DNA of 47,932 nucleotides, taken from assembly GCF_900100605.1 (NCBI RefSeq), contig NZ_FNCN01000041.1:1-47932 (forward strand). Reading direction: 5' to 3'. The notes under the pieces are model-generated. The model was not told where the DNA came from. It ran no database searches and worked only from the letters and a program-made list of their open reading frames with translations. Both the position numbers and the translations under genes were made by a program. Positions within the stretch are counted from its first letter, which is position 1; every line of letters begins with the position of its first letter. The DNA comes from Sinosporangium album (GTDB lineage Bacteria; Actinomycetota; Actinomycetes; Streptosporangiales; Streptosporangiaceae). Positions 24,626 through 31,762 of the stretch are shown here, piece by piece.

Positions 24626-25891
24626 GTGGACCGGTGGGGAACTGGGCTCCGAAGAGCGGCCCTGGCCGCCTCCGTAGGGCTGACGACGGCCGCCGTCGTG
24701 GTGATCCCGGGGAGCGCGAGCCATGCGGCCGGGCCGTACTGGTTCGAGTGCAGCGGCCCGCTCGCCCAGGGCGGGAAGGTGGCCGTCGACATCGCGCTGT
24801 CCTCACGAGAGCTGTCGCTCGGGGAGCCGTTGCAGGTGACCTGGCGGCTCGGCGAGCCGCAGTCCCCGCTGGGGGTGCCGAACCCGAACGACCCCAACCT
24901 CGACCAGGGCGCCCACCTCGCCGTCACCGGCCGGGTGGGTGTGCACGACCTGTGGACGGGCGGCGGCACGATCGACGCGACCGGCACCCGCGTCGTGGAC
25001 GCCGCCCGGCTCCGGGACGACAAGCCTTTGGAGTTCGGCACCCTCAACACCGGGCGGGTCGTGGCCGACAAGGTCGGAACGGGAACGGTGTCCGTGGGGT
25101 CGCTCATTCTCGACCTCGCGCCTGTCGAGTCGACCTACAACGACATGTTCACATCGGTCGGTGATTTCTCGGCGAACTATCCGGGCACGTGGTCGCCATC
25201 GACGGATTCCAGTGGTCTCGGGCACTACAACGGGGACGTCCAGGAGAGCACTACCGACGGTGACAAGGCTGAGTTCACCTTCGTCGGGACGGGCGTGGAC
25301 CTGATCACCGACCGGCACGTGGACATGGGCAAGATGGAACTGGTCGTGGACGACCTGAACCGGCCGGTCACCGAGGTGCAGACCCTGGACGCCTATCAGG
25401 CGCCCGAGGTGCCCCGGAAGGTCCAGCAGAAGTTCACGGTGGCGAGCGACCTGCCGTATGGGAAGTACCGGCTGACCGTCACCAACAAGACCCAGGACAA
25501 GCACGCCCGCATCGATGCCTTCCGCGTGCGTGCGGGGACGGCCAACAATCACGCGGTGTCGCCGTACCGGACGGTGTGCGAGCCGACGGGCACCCTGCCG
25601 AAGATCCAGATCACGGTGAAGGGCCCGGACTCCACGCCTACGCCCACGCCCCCGGCGACACCCACACCGCGGCCGACGAAAACGCCGACGCCGACTCCCA
25701 CGGGCACGGGCACTAAGCCGCCGTCCGGTGCCGCGGCTCCGGTGCCGTGGGGCACCCACACGAGCGTGAGCGTCTACAGCTCCAGCACTCCGCGCCCGAC
25801 GACGACGGTGACGGCCACCGTGACGGCGCGTCCGCAGGTCACCGTGACGCCGAAGGGCGGCGCCGACACCGGGGAAGGACACGGCGGATGA
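24626..25891 (+). CDS. Secreted protein, candidate sortase F substrate 1
   Basis: The 421-residue protein begins at GTG (GGAG 7 nt upstream) with a signal peptide ending near SASHAAGPYWF. Residues 36-185 form one domain. Residues about 188-305 look like a galactose-binding-type beta-sandwich, with AEFTFVGTGVDLITDRHVDM and KARIDAF-like ends. A Thr/Pro linker with TPTPTP repeats and a TVTATVTARP stretch precede the end VTPKGGADTGEGHGG. The PKGGADTG motif matches the second substrate downstream, but here no hydrophobic helix or basic tail follows. Its stop overlaps the sortase start as ATGA, so the two are translationally coupled. Role: probably a cell-surface or extracellular protein. Confidence 0.75.
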   Translation: MDRWGTGLRRAALAASVGLTTAAVVVIPGSASHAAGPYWFECSGPLAQGGKVAVDIALSSRELSLGEPLQVTWRLGEPQSPLGVPNPNDPNLDQGAHLAVTGRVGVHDLWTGGGTIDATGTRVVDAARLRDDKPLEFGTLNTGRVVADKVGTGTVSVGSLILDLAPVESTYNDMFTSVGDFSANYPGTWSPSTDSSGLGHYNGDVQESTTDGDKAEFTFVGTGVDLITDRHVDMGKMELVVDDLNRPVTEVQTLDAYQAPEVPRKVQQKFTVASDLPYGKYRLTVTNKTQDKHARIDAFRVRAGTANNHAVSPYRTVCEPTGTLPKIQITVKGPDSTPTPTPPATPTPRPTKTPTPTPTGTGTKPPSGAAAPVPWGTHTSVSVYSSSTPRPTTTVTATVTARPQVTVTPKGGADTGEGHGG

Positions 25892-26682
25892 GCGGGATCG
25901 ACTCCGGGTCGGCTTTCAGGAGCGCCGGCCCCGACAAAACCCCCCGCGGCCGGCTGATCGCCGCGCTGCTCGTGGCGGGTTCGCTCGGCACGATCGCCGT
26001 CATCATGGCCGCGCTGCTCACCTACCTCGCGCCGCCCGCGCCGCAGCCCGACGTTCAGGCCGACGGCGCGGAGCTGTCGCTGACGAACATGGCCGAAGCC
26101 GGGTACTTCGCCCCCGTGGTGGGGCCCGGCGGCCCCGGCGTGCTCCTCACCGCCGCGCAGCCCAGCGCGCCGCCGCCGGCGCCCGCCGTACGGCCCGTCG
26201 CCGGGTTCGCCAAGAACTCCAAGGTGCGGCCGTCGCGCATCGTCATCCCGTCGATCGGCGTCTCGGCTCCGCTGACATCGCTGGGGCTCCAGCCTTCCGG
26301 CGCGGTCCAGGCGCCCTCGAAGAGCCGCCCCAACCTGGCCGGGTGGTACAAGCACGGCCCTGAACCCGGTGAGACCGGCCCGGCGGTGATCCTCGGTCAC
26401 GTCAGCACCAAGCGCGGCGCCGCGGTGTTCAACCGGGTGAAGGATCTGCAGAAGGGGCGCAAGATCCGGGTCGTACGGTCGAACGGCACCGTGGCCGAGT
26501 TCACCGTCAGCGGCATCGAGCAGGTGCGCAAGGACGCGTTCCCGACGCAGCGGGTCTACGGCAACGTCAACCGGGCTGAGCTGCGGCTTGTCACGTGCGG
26601 CGGGGTGCTCAATGCCAAGGACCACTCCTACAGCGACAACATCATCGTCTACGCCACGCTCTCGGCTAAACGCGCGCGGTAG
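25888..26682 (+). CDS. Class F sortase 1
   Basis: The 264-residue transpeptidase has a cytoplasmic start, one membrane anchor (about 22-47), a Pro-rich linker, and a class F catalytic domain from residue 115. IPSIGVSAPLTSLGL opens it, PAVILGHVSTK holds His171, FPTQRVYGNVNRAELRLVTCGG holds Cys237, and it ends YSDNIIVYATL. At the position of the third catalytic Arg of most sortases the sequence has Asp-Asn, as in its paralog downstream; I believe this is usual for class F. ATG at 25888 overlaps the substrate stop by four bases. Likely job: attach or process the neighbouring surface proteins. Confidence 0.88.
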   Translation: MSGIDSGSAFRSAGPDKTPRGRLIAALLVAGSLGTIAVIMAALLTYLAPPAPQPDVQADGAELSLTNMAEAGYFAPVVGPGGPGVLLTAAQPSAPPPAPAVRPVAGFAKNSKVRPSRIVIPSIGVSAPLTSLGLQPSGAVQAPSKSRPNLAGWYKHGPEPGETGPAVILGHVSTKRGAAVFNRVKDLQKGRKIRVVRSNGTVAEFTVSGIEQVRKDAFPTQRVYGNVNRAELRLVTCGGVLNAKDHSYSDNIIVYATLSAKRAR

Positions 26683-26833
26683 TCGAGTGGCTTAAGTGAA
26701 TTTTGGGGTGGTTTTTCGGTCTTTCTCGCATTGGTGGGGATCTCTCCGTAGGATCGCTACCAAACCGTGATCAGAGCCTGTAACCCTGGTATGCCATCGA
26801 GAACCGGTCCCCGCCCCGAAACGGAGATTGATA

Positions 26834-27721
26834 GTGCTCAAGTCCAAGGCGCGACGGCGTGCGATAGCCGCTAAATCAGCCATGGCGGGAGCACTGGGCG
26901 CGGGCGCTTTTCTCGCCGTCTCGGTTATGGCCAACGTGGCGGGTGCCGACACCAAGACCGTCAGCTACGCCTGCGCGCCTCCCGCGGCAGGAAGCACTAC
27001 CTCCACGCCGCAGATCGGGGTCACCCTGACCGCCCCGGCCCAGACTCCGACGATCAACCAGGGAGTGCCGCTCACCTGGGTCAACGGCACACCTGCGCAG
27101 TCGCCGCTGGTGGCTCCGACGGCCATGGTGTCGGGGGACAGGGTGGTGTTGGAAGGCGAGATCATCGTGACCGGGCCCAACCCCACCGCCACGGTGACGG
27201 TCAAGGCCTCCGGCGTCGCGACGATTCCCGCCGTCGGTCTTGCTCAGAACAACCCTCTTCCCATGCCCACCATGCTGGCCACCGTGACGCCCACCGCCTC
27301 GGGCACGACGTTGGCGAAGGTCGGCAGCTTCTGGCTGAAGGTCGGGTCGGGTGTCGCGCAGCCGACGGAGATCTACAAATGCACGATCGCGACCGCCGGC
27401 ACCAACATCCAGCCCGCCTCCGTGCAGTTGGTGATCGGGGCCTCCGCGTCGCCTACCACCCCCTCGTCGTCGCCGACCACGCCGACGTCCACCCCCACGA
27501 CACCGAAGCCGACCATCACCGAGACCAAGACCAAGTACGTCACCCCGGAGCAGGACCAGGACGCGGACGAGGAGAGCACCACGCCCAAGGGTGGTGCCGA
27601 CACCGGCGGCGGTGGCGCGGCGGGTCCGGACGGCAGGATGTTCGTCCTGGTCGGGTCGCTGATGGTGGGTGCCGCGGCGATCGGTGGCCTTTTCCTGCGC
27701 CGACGTGCCATCGGGCGCTGA
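26834..27721 (+). CDS. Secreted protein with C-terminal sorting-like signal, substrate 2
   Basis: The 295-residue protein starts at GTG 26834 (GGAG 7 nt upstream; a TTG at 26828 is too close to it). The N-terminus KSKARRRAIAAKSAMAG and a hydrophobic run ending near VAGADTKTV form a signal peptide. Residues 35-180 are one beta-type domain with paired cysteines (SYACAPP and YKCTI). A Ser/Thr/Pro linker and an acidic stretch lead to TTPKGGADTGGGG, then a hydrophobic helix VLVGSLMVGAAAIGGLFL and the basic end RRRAIGR. This is the layout of a sortase sorting signal with PKGGADTG in place of LPXTG/LAXTG. It lies between two class F sortase genes. Confidence 0.8.
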   Translation: MLKSKARRRAIAAKSAMAGALGAGAFLAVSVMANVAGADTKTVSYACAPPAAGSTTSTPQIGVTLTAPAQTPTINQGVPLTWVNGTPAQSPLVAPTAMVSGDRVVLEGEIIVTGPNPTATVTVKASGVATIPAVGLAQNNPLPMPTMLATVTPTASGTTLAKVGSFWLKVGSGVAQPTEIYKCTIATAGTNIQPASVQLVIGASASPTTPSSSPTTPTSTPTTPKPTITETKTKYVTPEQDQDADEESTTPKGGADTGGGGAAGPDGRMFVLVGSLMVGAAAIGGLFLRRRAIGR

Positions 27722-27733
27722 TCGGGCGTCGCG

Positions 27734-28537
27734 GTGACGATGCAGGGGCCTCCGGGCGGCTACGCTGGCGGGCCCCCGCCGTACGGCTATGGGCCTCCGT
27801 GGGAGGAACCGCAGCCGGAGCCGGATCGCGGCGGCAGGATCCTGCGGTCGACGCTGCTGATCGCCGCCCTGGTGGGGGTCGTCACCGTGATCGCGGGTCT
27901 GCTCATGGTGTTCGGCAATCCGGAGGAGTACGGTCTGGCGGACGAGCGGACGGCGCTGGAACTGCAGGTGCAGCCGAGCGGGAGCCCCGCCGATTCCGGA
28001 ACGGCGCACTATTTCACTGGGCCGCCCGAGGCCGCCGCGCCGCTGCCGGACATTGTGGCGGCCCCTCCGATGATGCCCGCCACGCCGAAGCGCATCACCA
28101 TCAAGAAGCTCGGTGTGAACGCCCCGATCACGTCGGTCGGGTTGAACAAGCGCGGCGCGGTGGAGGTGCCGCCGGTGTCGAACGCCAACCTGGTCGGGTG
28201 GTACCGCAACATGTCGACGCCGGGCCAGGCGGGGCCGGCGGTGCTGCTCGGGCACAAGGACACGCGGACCACGCCCGCGGTGTTCCGGCGGCTGGGGGAG
28301 CTGCGCCACGGCGACGTGATCGAGGTGGAGCGGCAGGGCGGCACGGTGGCGGTGTTCACCGTGGGCGGGGTCGAGCAGGCGGACAAGAGGCTGTTCCCGA
28401 CCGAGCGGGTCTATGGGAAGTATGACAATCCGCAGCTTCACCTGGTCTCCTGCGGCGGCACCTACAACCATTCCACCGGGCACTACACGGACAACATCAT
28501 CGTGTACGCCACGATGACCTCGTCGTACCGGCGCTGA
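27734..28537 (+). CDS. Class F sortase 2
   Basis: The 267-residue protein has a Gly/Pro/Tyr-rich cytoplasmic tail (residues 1-33), one membrane helix (about 38-60), a linker, and a catalytic domain from 118. ITIKKLGVNAPITSVGL, PAVLLGHKDT (His174), FPTERVYGKYDNPQLHLVSCGG (Cys240) and YTDNIIVYATM define class F. It shares the order of motifs with sortase 1 but differs in the cytoplasmic tail and linker, so this is an old duplication or separate acquisition. GTG at 27734, or ATG at 27740, begins it 12 bases after the substrate 2 stop. Confidence 0.88.
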   Translation: MTMQGPPGGYAGGPPPYGYGPPWEEPQPEPDRGGRILRSTLLIAALVGVVTVIAGLLMVFGNPEEYGLADERTALELQVQPSGSPADSGTAHYFTGPPEAAAPLPDIVAAPPMMPATPKRITIKKLGVNAPITSVGLNKRGAVEVPPVSNANLVGWYRNMSTPGQAGPAVLLGHKDTRTTPAVFRRLGELRHGDVIEVERQGGTVAVFTVGGVEQADKRLFPTERVYGKYDNPQLHLVSCGGTYNHSTGHYTDNIIVYATMTSSYRR

Positions 28538-28600: not shown

Positions 28601-28639
28601 TTGATGTGGCTATGTGCGGGATCGGATCCTGGAGGCATC

Positions 28640-29785
28640 GTGACAGAGGCGTACATCGTCGGAGCGGTCCGCACCCCCGTCGGACGGAGAAAGGGCGGAC
28701 TGTCCACCGTTCATCCCGCGGATCTGGCCGCGCATCCGCTGAAGGCACTGATCGAGCGCACCGGGGTCGACCCGGCGGCCGTCGATGACGTGATCATGGG
28801 GTGCGTTTCGCAGTTCGGCCCCCAGACCATGGATATCGCCCGTACGGCATGGCTTTCGGCGGGGCTGCCGGAAAGCGTGCCCGGCGTCACCATCGACCGG
28901 CAATGCGGCTCCTCGCAGCAGGCGATTCACTTCGCCGCCCAAGGCGTGCTCTCCGGCACCCAGGACCTTGTCCTGGCCGCCGGCGTGGAGTCGATGAGCG
29001 TCGTCCCGATGGGTTCGACGGTCACGGCCGCGCTGGAGGCCGGTTTGCCGCTGCCGTACGGCGAAGGCTGGGCCGAGCGCTACGGCACCCAGGAGATCTC
29101 GCAGTTCCGGGGCGCCGAGCTGATGTGTGAGAAGTGGGGTTTCTCCCGCGATGAGCTGGAGCGGTACGCCTACGAGAGCCACCAGCGCGCCGCCAAGGCG
29201 GTGGCGGGCGGCCATTTCGCCGACCAGATCGCCCCGCTCGCCGGTGTGACCGACGATGAGGGGCCGCGCTCCGACACCACCCTGGAGAAGATGGCGGGGC
29301 TCAAGCTTCTGCGGGAGGACGGCAGGCTGACCGCGGCCACGTCGTCGCAGGTGTCCGATGGAGCCGCCGCGGTGCTGATCGCGTCAGGCCAGGCCGTACG
29401 CGATCACGGCCTCGCGCCGCGTGCCCGCGTCGTCACCCTCACCCTCGCCGGCGACGACCCCGTCTACATGCTCACCGCGCCCATCCCCGCGACCCGCAAG
29501 GCACTCAAGCGGGCCGGGCTGACCATCGACGACATCGACGTCGTCGAGATCAACGAGGCGTTTGCGCCCGTGCCGCTGGCCTGGCTGAAGGAGCTCGACG
29601 CCGACCCCGCCAAGACCAACCCGAACGGCGGCGCCATCGCCCTCGGCCACCCGCTCGGCGCGACGGGGGCCGTCCTCATGACCAAGCTCCTGCACGAGTT
29701 GGAGCGCACCGGCGGACGCTACGGCCTGCAGACCATGTGCGAGGGCGGCGGTCAGGCCAACGTCACCATCATCGAGCGCCTCTGA
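28640..29785 (+). CDS. Acetyl-CoA acetyltransferase (thiolase)
   Basis: The 381-residue thiolase has the active-site Cys89 in TIDRQCGSSQQAIHF, NEAFAPVPLAW, His337 in ALGHPLGATGAV, and the second Cys367 in MCEGGGQANVTI. It forms or cleaves 3-ketoacyl-CoA in fatty-acid or related acyl-CoA metabolism. The pattern (PMGSTVTAALEAGLPLPYGE insert) is that of the FadA-like acetyl-CoA acetyltransferases of actinobacteria. GTG at 28640 has GGAGG 4-5 bases upstream. It is monocistronic with a strong terminator behind it. Confidence 0.92.
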   Translation: MTEAYIVGAVRTPVGRRKGGLSTVHPADLAAHPLKALIERTGVDPAAVDDVIMGCVSQFGPQTMDIARTAWLSAGLPESVPGVTIDRQCGSSQQAIHFAAQGVLSGTQDLVLAAGVESMSVVPMGSTVTAALEAGLPLPYGEGWAERYGTQEISQFRGAELMCEKWGFSRDELERYAYESHQRAAKAVAGGHFADQIAPLAGVTDDEGPRSDTTLEKMAGLKLLREDGRLTAATSSQVSDGAAAVLIASGQAVRDHGLAPRARVVTLTLAGDDPVYMLTAPIPATRKALKRAGLTIDDIDVVEINEAFAPVPLAWLKELDADPAKTNPNGGAIALGHPLGATGAVLMTKLLHELERTGGRYGLQTMCEGGGQANVTIIERL

Positions 29786-29794
29786 CGGCTCTGA

Positions 29795-29844
29795 ACGCGC
29801 GGCGGCCCGGTCCCCGAGATCTCGGAGACCGGGCCGCCGCGCGT
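29795..29844. terminator. Long bidirectional hairpin terminator
   Basis: An almost perfect inverted repeat of more than 20 bp per arm, with one mismatch, begins ACGCGCGGCGGCCCGGTC and ends GACCGGGCCGCCGCGCGT. It lies between the thiolase stop and the convergent permease stop. Confidence 0.85.
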
Positions 29845-29957
29845 CCGACGTTCGATCGGTCGGATCGCGTGGGATGGGACTCTCGCGGGGTTGTGGCCTG
29901 CGAGGTGGGGGCCGGGGCGGCCGGGTACGGAGCCCCGGGGGTGGCGGGCTGCGCGCG

Positions 29958-30860
29958 TTACTTGATCGATCCCGCGGTGAGGCCGCCCACGACCTTCCGC
30001 TCGATCAACGCGAACAGGATGATCACCGGGATGGTGGCGATGACCGATCCGGCGAACAGGTTCTGCCAGTCCACTTCGTACTGCCCGATGAAGGAGTTCA
30101 GCGCCACGGTGAGTGGCTGATTCTCCGGGGAGGTCGTCAGGGTCAGTGCGACGACGAACTCATTCCACGCCGCGATGAAGGTGAAGATCAACGCGGTGAT
30201 GACACCTGGCAGGGCCAAGGGCAGCGTCACCCTGAACAGGGCGCCCCAGCGGCCGTTGCCGTCTATGAAAGCCGCCTCCTCCAGCTCCCGCGGGATCGAG
30301 CTGAAGTAGGCGTTGAGGATCCATACGGCGAACGCCAGGTTGAACCCGCCGTTCACCAGGATCAGCGACCAGATCGTGTCGATCAGACCGAACTGGTAGA
30401 ACTCCCGGTAGATGCCCACGAGCATCGCGGTCGGCTGGAACATCTGGGTGATCAGCACGACGATGAGGAACGCCGTGCGGCCCCGGAAGTTGTGCCGGGC
30501 GGTGTAGTAGGCGGCCGGGAGGGCCACGATCAGCACCAGGATGGTCGAGCCGGCGGCGACCTGCAGGGTGACCCACAGGTTGCCGGCCAGGCCGCTGGTC
30601 CAGAAGTTGGTGAAGTTCGACCAGGCGAAGGTGCTGGGGAGGTAGGTCGCGTCCTGGAGTTCGTCCTGCGGCCGGAGCGCGGTGAGGATCATCACCAGGT
30701 ACGGGAACAGGAAGATGAACGCGACCAGATATGCGCTCGCCGCGATGATCACAGTCTTGATCTTGGGCAGAACCCGGTTGGGTCGGGGCCTACCGCCGTG
30801 GCGGGAGACCTGACCGCTCGCGCGGGGGCGGGACACGGTGGGTGTTGTTGTCGTCGTCAT
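29958..30860 (-). CDS. Sugar ABC transporter permease (MalG/DasC type)
   Basis: The 300-residue protein has six membrane helices and the EAA loop RELEEAAFIDGNGRWGALFR followed by LPLALPG, which contacts the ATPase. It belongs to the CUT1 carbohydrate family. It overlaps the upstream permease gene by four bases. No ATPase gene is adjacent, as is normal for actinomycete CUT1 systems that share MsiK. Given the dre-like sites upstream of the operon, a chitobiose/N-acetylglucosamine transporter of DasABC or NgcEFG type is the favoured reading. Confidence 0.88.
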   Translation of the reverse strand: MTTTTTPTVSRPRASGQVSRHGGRPRPNRVLPKIKTVIIAASAYLVAFIFLFPYLVMILTALRPQDELQDATYLPSTFAWSNFTNFWTSGLAGNLWVTLQVAAGSTILVLIVALPAAYYTARHNFRGRTAFLIVVLITQMFQPTAMLVGIYREFYQFGLIDTIWSLILVNGGFNLAFAVWILNAYFSSIPRELEEAAFIDGNGRWGALFRVTLPLALPGVITALIFTFIAAWNEFVVALTLTTSPENQPLTVALNSFIGQYEVDWQNLFAGSVIATIPVIILFALIERKVVGGLTAGSIK

Positions 30861-31762
30861 CGGGCCACCTCGGTGTTCCAGCGGCTGACCTTCAGGAATA
30901 CGGCCGTCAGCACGATCACCATGCCGAAGTTGACCACGGACATGGCGGCGGACTCGCCGATGTCGGTGCCCTTGAGGATGAACATGAAGATCGTCGATGT
31001 GGCGGTCGAGTAGCCGGGCTGCCCGTGGGTCATCGCCCAGATGATCGGGAAGTTGTTGAAGACGTTCATCACGTTGATCAGCGCCGCGACGGTGAGGGCC
31101 GGCCGCAGCAGCGGCAGCGTGATCGACCAGTACACCCGCAGTTTGCGCGCGCCGTCCATCTTGGCCGCCTCGTAGACGTCAGAGGGGATGGTGGCGAGCC
31201 CCGCGAGCAGGGCATATGTGGTGAACGGCAGGGATACGAAGACCGCGACGAAAACCAGCCACGGCATCGCCGTACTCGCCTTGCCGAGGGGGTCGGCCTC
31301 GGCCCCGCCGAGCGCGTCGAGCAGGCCGAGGTCGACGAGGATCATGTTGACGAGCCCGGCCTCGGGGTCGAGCATCCACTTGAAGATGATCGCCGTCATC
31401 AGGACCGAGGCGGCCCAGGGGGCGATGAGCGCCCACCGCGCGACCCGTTTGAGGGGAAACTTCTGATTGAAGAGCTGCGCCAGGGCCAGCGACAGCACGA
31501 CGGTGAGCACCACGACCGCGACGACCCAGATCAGGCTGCGGAACATCACGCCGCCGAAGTCGGGCTCGTCGAACAACTTGGTGTAGTTGTCGAACCCATT
31601 GCCCCCTTGGACCACGCCGAACCGGCTGATCTTCTGGAAGGAGGACTGGATCATCACCACGACGGGCCAGATGACGACCACGGCGATCAGGATCACCGCA
31701 GGCCCGATCCAGATGAGCGGCGTCAACGCCCGGCTCATCCGGCTCTGGGATTTCTGATGCAT
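30857..31762 (-). CDS. Sugar ABC transporter permease (MalF/DasB type)
   Basis: The 301-residue permease has six membrane helices, with the EAA motif VYEAAKMDGARKLRVYWSI followed by LPLLRPAL. ATG at 31762 lies 70 bases behind the binding-protein gene, separated by a perfect 18-bp hairpin. It pairs with the following permease to form the membrane channel of a CUT1 importer. Typical length and motif spacing are intact. Confidence 0.88.
   Translation of the reverse strand: MHQKSQSRMSRALTPLIWIGPAVILIAVVVIWPVVVMIQSSFQKISRFGVVQGGNGFDNYTKLFDEPDFGGVMFRSLIWVVAVVVLTVVLSLALAQLFNQKFPLKRVARWALIAPWAASVLMTAIIFKWMLDPEAGLVNMILVDLGLLDALGGAEADPLGKASTAMPWLVFVAVFVSLPFTTYALLAGLATIPSDVYEAAKMDGARKLRVYWSITLPLLRPALTVAALINVMNVFNNFPIIWAMTHGQPGYSTATSTIFMFILKGTDIGESAAMSVVNFGMVIVLTAVFLKVSRWNTEVAR

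Follow-up and report, generated by a model that had tools for sequence, protein, structure and literature searches.

What class F sortases of actinomycetes act on, and by what rule they recognise it, is the question raised by a gene cluster of the soil bacterium Sinosporangium album. In the passages covered, two reports call the role of class F sortases unknown (PMC13251363, PMC6998099), five such enzymes are predicted in Streptomyces coelicolor (PMC5148588), and the quadruple class F deletion of Actinoplanes missouriensis gave no phenotype, class E being the sortase that matters in Actinoplanes (PMC13251363). No named actinomycete class F substrate appeared in the literature searched, most subscription papers being outside its scope. 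The window analyzed here is the whole stretch of 47,932 nucleotides at the start of contig NZ_FNCN01000041.1, in which two class F sortase genes each follow the gene of a secreted protein bearing the same motif, PKGGADTG. The sequence comparisons described below make it quite probable that this is a double class F module, in which each sortase serves the secreted protein of the preceding gene, cuts its motif and links the Thr to the cell surface.

The initial annotation had proposed the order substrate, class F sortase, substrate, class F sortase, with PKGGADTG near the C-terminus of both secreted proteins. The open reading frames together with the scores against the class F profile NF033748 bear out the order, and direct reading of the translations confirms the two motifs (Table 1). 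The membrane helix and RRR tail announced for substrate 2 are present as well, its C-terminus running from PKGGADTGGGG through a hydrophobic helix to RRRAIGR, which makes its sorting signal complete; that substrate 1 has no anchor had been missed. In substrate 1, a signal peptide, recognized by eye, precedes two beta-sandwich regions and a Thr/Pro linker, after which come the motif and then the stop, six residues past the motif Thr, with no C-terminal membrane helix. The C-terminus of this reading frame, by direct reading, is TPKGGADTGEGHGG, immediately followed by the stop. This TGA and the SrtF-1 start codon overlap (ggATGAgc), and 12 nt separate substrate 2 from SrtF-2.

Table 1. Features of the double class F module, in positions of the window
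Feature	Position	Strand	Basis or remark
Substrate 1 (ORF, 421 aa)	24626..25891	+	ORF list, direct reading
PKGGADTG motif, substrate 1	25850..25873	+	only EGHGG then stop after motif
SrtF-1, class F sortase	25888..26682	+	NF033748 profile match; start overlapping substrate 1 stop
Substrate 2 (ORF, 295 aa)	26834..27721	+	signal peptide (by eye), beta-sandwich, linker, complete sorting signal
PKGGADTG motif, substrate 2	27584..27607	+	direct reading; pattern search
Substrate 2 membrane helix (model residues 265-293) and basic tail RRRAIGR	27626..27718	+	sequence, model
SrtF-2, second class F sortase	27734..28537	+	NF033748 profile match

In the AlphaFold models (mean pLDDT 75.6 for substrate 2 and 65.7 for substrate 1), the motif of each substrate lies in a low-confidence stretch after the beta-sandwich regions, and in substrate 2 the helix 265-293 comes directly after this stretch. 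The second beta-sandwich region of substrate 1 is perhaps CBM-like, on a weak match, and a Pfam scan gave weak CE2_N matches in 3 of 17 aligned members, a mere hint from an alignment that contains one wrong-strand row. A likeness of substrate 1 to glycosyl hydrolases was rejected, the best fold-search E of 9.4e-6 being accompanied by a TM-score of only 0.24, and the fold search with the substrate 2 model found no convincing homologue (best E 6.5e-3). After the module, the window holds a thiolase-like gene and two transport-permease-like genes (28601-31762); permease C-termini likewise adjoin the double cluster at three other loci (L075, L085 and L123).

Both enzymes score as class F sortases, with NF033748 scores of 200.1 bits for SrtF-1 and 198.9 bits for SrtF-2 (cut-off 166). 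In the alignment they retain the active-site His and Cys and have Asn where other sortases have Arg, a replacement reported for actinobacterial class F enzymes in the passages covered of PMC6998099. Across the class F sortases of the host family, His and Cys are kept in 144/144 and the Asn is found in 132/144. The catalytic domains of SrtF-1 and SrtF-2 agree at 76 of 154 aligned positions, and SrtF-1 begins with an N-terminal membrane helix, judged by hydropathy, rather than a lipobox. Among solved structures, the SrtF-1 sequence matched (E up to 0.01) one distant sortase only, 2kw8. Searched against the named genomes, a single-protein query found no relative, and the named loci used below were retrieved with an alignment query instead.

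The whole 7.06 Mb genome encodes four class F sortases above the cut-off and one further sortase whose best match is class E. The pattern CCNNNNGGNGGNNNNGAYACNGG matches this genome five times, each time at the locus of a class F sortase; the reversed pattern, run as a control, has 0 matches. Two of the P-x-G-G-x-D-T-G copies are those seen in the window by the initial annotation; the remaining three, beyond its view, lie inside the third class F gene, on contig C16. This gene combines in a single reading frame its own catalytic domain and, ahead of it, three PRGGVDTGAGG motifs set in a poly-aspartate stretch, and its product passes both the sortase model (188.4 bits) and the GVDTG model (38.2 bits). 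The fused sortase (locus L061, 4001-4438) has a counterpart in the other genome examined of the genus (L073), 74% identical and also with three motifs. No other clear fusion of sortase and motif was found among the 144 host-family sortases, and three more motif matches within the frames of sortases are probably fortuitous. C16-type sortases mostly have as partner a distinct protein, exported and rich in poly-aspartate, in which 3-7 motifs spaced 20-28 residues apart precede a helix (seven at L084, five at L185, three each at L113, L120 and L135); in the host-genus form, the catalytic domain replaces the helix and tail. The fourth class F gene (C33) is preceded by that of a small exported protein ending in PKAGGGGTAAGGG, a helix and RRRRT.

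Family-wide, the bare DNA pattern is unspecific, being present in 48 of 61 genomes, many of which contain its reversed control too. Co-occurrence was counted with the NCBIfam model NF058571 (GVDTG_CTERM), a motif-covering match being one at E up to 0.01 that starts at model position 10 or earlier. In this sample of 61 host-family genomes, 50 have class F sortases over the cut-off, one more has a match at 138.9 bits, and 10 have none; four of these ten give weak class F matches, probably from other sortase classes. The count used 120 rows and left out 15, which were further tandem motifs in or adjoining counted frames, all beside class F sortases. Motif-covering matches were present in 46/51 genomes with class F versus 0/10 without (Fisher P 3.3e-8). 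As to position, 31 of the 35 over-cut-off matches have a class F sortase within 3 kb, as do 64 of the 81 starting at model position 4 or earlier, 14 of the 21 starting at positions 5-10 and none of the 18 to the helix part alone. The outcome that would have contradicted the initial annotation, motif proteins being as frequent at a distance from class F sortases as beside them, did not occur. The pairing is not exclusive, since 17 of the 81 motif-covering matches are not near such a sortase, which suggests that some substrates are used in trans or that some contigs are short.

The recognition rule was derived from the neighborhoods of 144 class F sortases of the host family (126 stretches, 50 genomes), scored with a position matrix. 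This matrix took the place of an earlier regular-expression pass, which had reported motif plus helix at 98/144 (96, plus 2 flagged fused by a loose chance match) and had missed the Ala-type and divergent cases; two of its four rows with motif and no helix, L146 and L172, were judged spurious. With the matrix, a helix-tailed motif gene is found at most 1.6 kb upstream of 118/144 sortases (114 co-directional, 4 divergent), a count that is partly circular because the matrix was trained on the same family loci. The 118 cognate motifs have Pro at P7 in 111, Gly at P5 in 91, Gly or Ala at P4 in 112, Ala, Pro or Val at P3 in 110, Thr (92) or Ala (22) at P1, Gly at P1' in 117 and Gly at P3' in 100. 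As read from these sequences, the rule is P-x-G-[GA]-[APV]-x-[TA]-G-x-G-G, with a predicted cut between the [TA] position and the following Gly; it resembles LPXTG minus the leucine, with Pro-x-Gly ahead and Gly-rich residues behind.

The 26 family misses comprise two anchorless and two fused cases of the host genus, five with less than 600 nt of upstream contig, and 17 others; nine of the latter have an NCBIfam motif match within 3 kb and eight no clear partner (L153 being borderline). Four class F sortases with no clear motif partner nearby (L080, L111, L146 and L161) are grouped on the tree and perhaps serve substrates encoded elsewhere in the genome. Counted per sortase, 28/191 helix-tailed ORFs outside the upstream slot score too, mostly as the substrate of the neighboring sortase. 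Counted per ORF, with the assigned substrates set aside, 3/278 helix-tailed family ORFs score, two of them extra substrates inside clusters.

The same matrix, trained only on the host family, was positive at 47 of 60 class F loci chosen from the rest of the phylum (36 genomes; three loci below the sortase cut-off). Elsewhere in these loci, it scored a single one of 56 helix-tailed ORFs, a motif gene that directly follows the sortase gene. This gene accounts for one of the 13 misses (L236). Among the others, L212, L213 and L239 are anchorless, L234 is anchorless by eye, and L207, L244, L247 and L252 show motif plus helix by eye, under the threshold; at L222, L237, L246 and L250, neither matrix nor eye finds a motif partner. 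In the named genomes, 66/80 loci were positive, in a set that is not independent because it overlaps the others and at least 6 of the 80 seem to repeat records already used. Outside the upstream slot 22/147 scored, the 14 shown being all downstream, mostly in the double-cluster layout. The 14 named misses consist of seven anchorless loci, two anchorless by eye (L310 and L328), two having by eye a motif with an odd tail (L298 and L317), and three with no motif partner (L312, L332 and L315, the last with only 215 nt upstream). Records L288 (titled Rhodococcus rhodnii) and L289 (titled Kibdelosporangium aridum) have in common the motif upstream, the length of the substrate, the spacing and the N-terminus of the sortase, and one of them may be mislabelled or contaminated. 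The suggestion that such neat pairing could reveal a recognition rule was fruitful, a rule derived in the family holding at 47/60 loci outside it. Combined with the proximity of 64/81 matches to class F sortases and their absence from the 10 genomes devoid of class F, this comparison supports the initial view that these sortases would act on these proteins.

Sortases and motifs also vary together. Between genomes, sortase distance and motif distance correlate with r = 0.461, when within-genome shuffles of the motifs give a mean of 0.023 (sd 0.019) and 0/2000 reach the observed value. In 92 of 104 cases, the motif of the nearest foreign sortase is closer to a sortase's own motif than to those of its sister sortases. 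The clades of the sortase tree match motif classes: P-x-GGAQTGE-type for SrtF-1, GGxxTGGGG for SrtF-2, APxAGGGGT for the C33-type and GGVDTG for the C16-type. Linked inheritance of neighbors alone could give r = 0.46, so that this co-variation supports a lasting pairing and is no proof of contact.

In the double module, SrtF-1 and SrtF-2 would each read the rule in the protein encoded just upstream. The sortase Cys would cut between Thr (or Ala) and Gly, and the Thr carboxyl would then be joined to an amino group of the cell surface, most likely that of peptidoglycan diaminopimelate. For substrate 2 the usual route would apply, the helix and basic tail at its C-terminus keeping it in the membrane up to cleavage. 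Substrate 1 appears to have lost this anchor while its motif, close to the C-terminus, was retained; the protein is probably still in use, the overlap of the two genes coupling it to SrtF-1.

The most serious competing explanation, which we consider unlikely and by no means negligible, is that substrate 1 is decaying or re-purposed: the anchor would have been lost in the ancestor of the genus, the protein would be freely secreted with its motif as a relic, and SrtF-1 would act in trans on others. Indeed, 15 of 15 substrate 1 orthologs from other genera in the alignment (row L187, on the wrong strand, excluded) end with a helix and an RRR-type tail, and the two host-genus genomes examined both encode a substrate 1 devoid of anchor, ending in TGEGHGG in the window and in TGEGHHE in the other. 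Against a relic speaks the pN/pS of 0.19 found for the last 19 aligned codons, versus 0.54 for the folded part and 0.51 for the linker, despite the 64% identity of the two proteins, in a comparison limited to two genomes and in which some of the constraint may come from the overlapping start of the sortase gene. So does the recurrence of such proteins in other lineages. A scan of 284 sortase sites (including a few duplicates) detected 12 whose upstream gene ends 6-11 residues past the Thr with no helix: two in the host genus, three in two other families, and seven in Amycolatopsis, Labedaea and Kutzneria. In another genus with an anchorless substrate, the feature is present in 4/4 genomes examined, and pN/pS is 0.10 for the motif, 0.46 for the body and 1.6 for the five residues after the motif (six pairs summed, non-independent, with few sites). 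Judged by these ratios, the anchorless motif of that genus is under purifying selection.

That another enzyme, a class E sortase or a different protease, reads the motif while the class F sortases are merely adjacent seems to us very improbable. The genome does have a class E-like sortase, and class E is the one reported to matter in Actinoplanes, in the passages covered of PMC13251363; but motif-covering matches are found in 0/10 genomes without class F (weak class F matches occurring in 4/10), and the motif, without the Leu of LAXTG, varies with the class F clade. At the anchorless loci, the substrate gene's stop touches or overlaps the first codon of the sortase in 11/12 (offset -1 to +7), and a lipobox is carried by 9/12 sortases (L212, L213, L239, L299, L304, L305, L316, L319 and L330, with L280 as a tenth by eye) versus 33/236 of those with helix-tailed partners (Fisher 7.8e-6, kinship uncorrected, five of the 236 assigned by eye). 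These automatically found overlaps, along with the true fusion fixed in the C16 sortase of both examined host-genus genomes, could also hint at frameshifting that would produce a part-fused substrate-sortase chain, for which we see only a slim chance, as fusion would bury the sortase's own lipobox in 9 of the 12 loci.

With the dedicated module as the preferred reading, a broader proposal can be put forward tentatively, at somewhat less than an even chance: actinobacterial class F sortases might use soluble anchorless substrates, a motif P-x-G-[GA]-x-x-T-G-x-G-G, cut between Thr and Gly and located no more than about a dozen residues from the C-terminus, being enough, and the overlap of the two genes standing in for retention, with a sortase that is in most cases a lipoprotein. 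These enzymes would also act on tandem poly-aspartate motifs and, in the host genus, on motifs of their own chain. Since each cut would leave Gly-x-Gly-Gly as a new N-terminus, which a sortase could use as nucleophile, chains might be joined together. If anchorless sorting signals are real, the membrane helix and basic tail that textbooks require are not always needed. With a rule predicting the substrate of most class F sortases, the function of these enzymes can be tested directly, and new ligation tags become available.

The module itself is of a known kind; new, as far as searched, are the anchorless motif substrates, the sortase fused to three motifs and the poly-aspartate substrates with 3-7 motifs. 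Literature searches on GVDTG, repeated LPXTG, anchorless substrates and lipoprotein sortases returned nothing relevant by title. The core motif is not new, NCBIfam already having a GVDTG sorting-domain model. Substrate 2 resembles this model, NF058571, in its C-terminal motif, membrane helix and basic tail, and scores 28.5 bits by hmmscan and 32.9 by whole-genome search (cut-off 29). The model also matches the three motifs inside the C16 sortase and gives no match to substrate 1, which has no post-motif helix. At E 0.01 it matches 11/20 substrate-2 family members and 1/16 substrate-1 family members; it covers only part of these families, and the rule found here is therefore wider. Neither window substrate, with no Leu at P4, matches the LPXTG model Gram_pos_anchor (PF00746) at E up to 1, and one of 20 substrate-2 family members does (E 0.034). 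GlyGly-CTERM is among the other C-terminal signals. Within the passages covered, a motif is reported for a single class F enzyme, SrtF of Cutibacterium acnes, said to read LPXTG (PMC13257024), which, like the absence of phenotype in the quadruple deletion of A. missouriensis, counts against the module reading; the motif described here differs by Gly or Ala at the position of Leu and by Pro-x-Gly ahead. The class E enzyme SrtE1 of S. coelicolor reads LAXTG, with Ala instead of Pro at P3, in the passages covered of PMC5148588. Both systems thus pair an actinobacterial sortase with a motif in which Ala takes the place of Pro at P3. LAXTG has Leu at P4, whereas the window motifs both have Gly there and 112 of the 118 cognate motifs Gly or Ala. 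Unlike the class E system, the class F system is characterized by mostly one substrate gene per sortase and by anchorless and multi-motif substrates.
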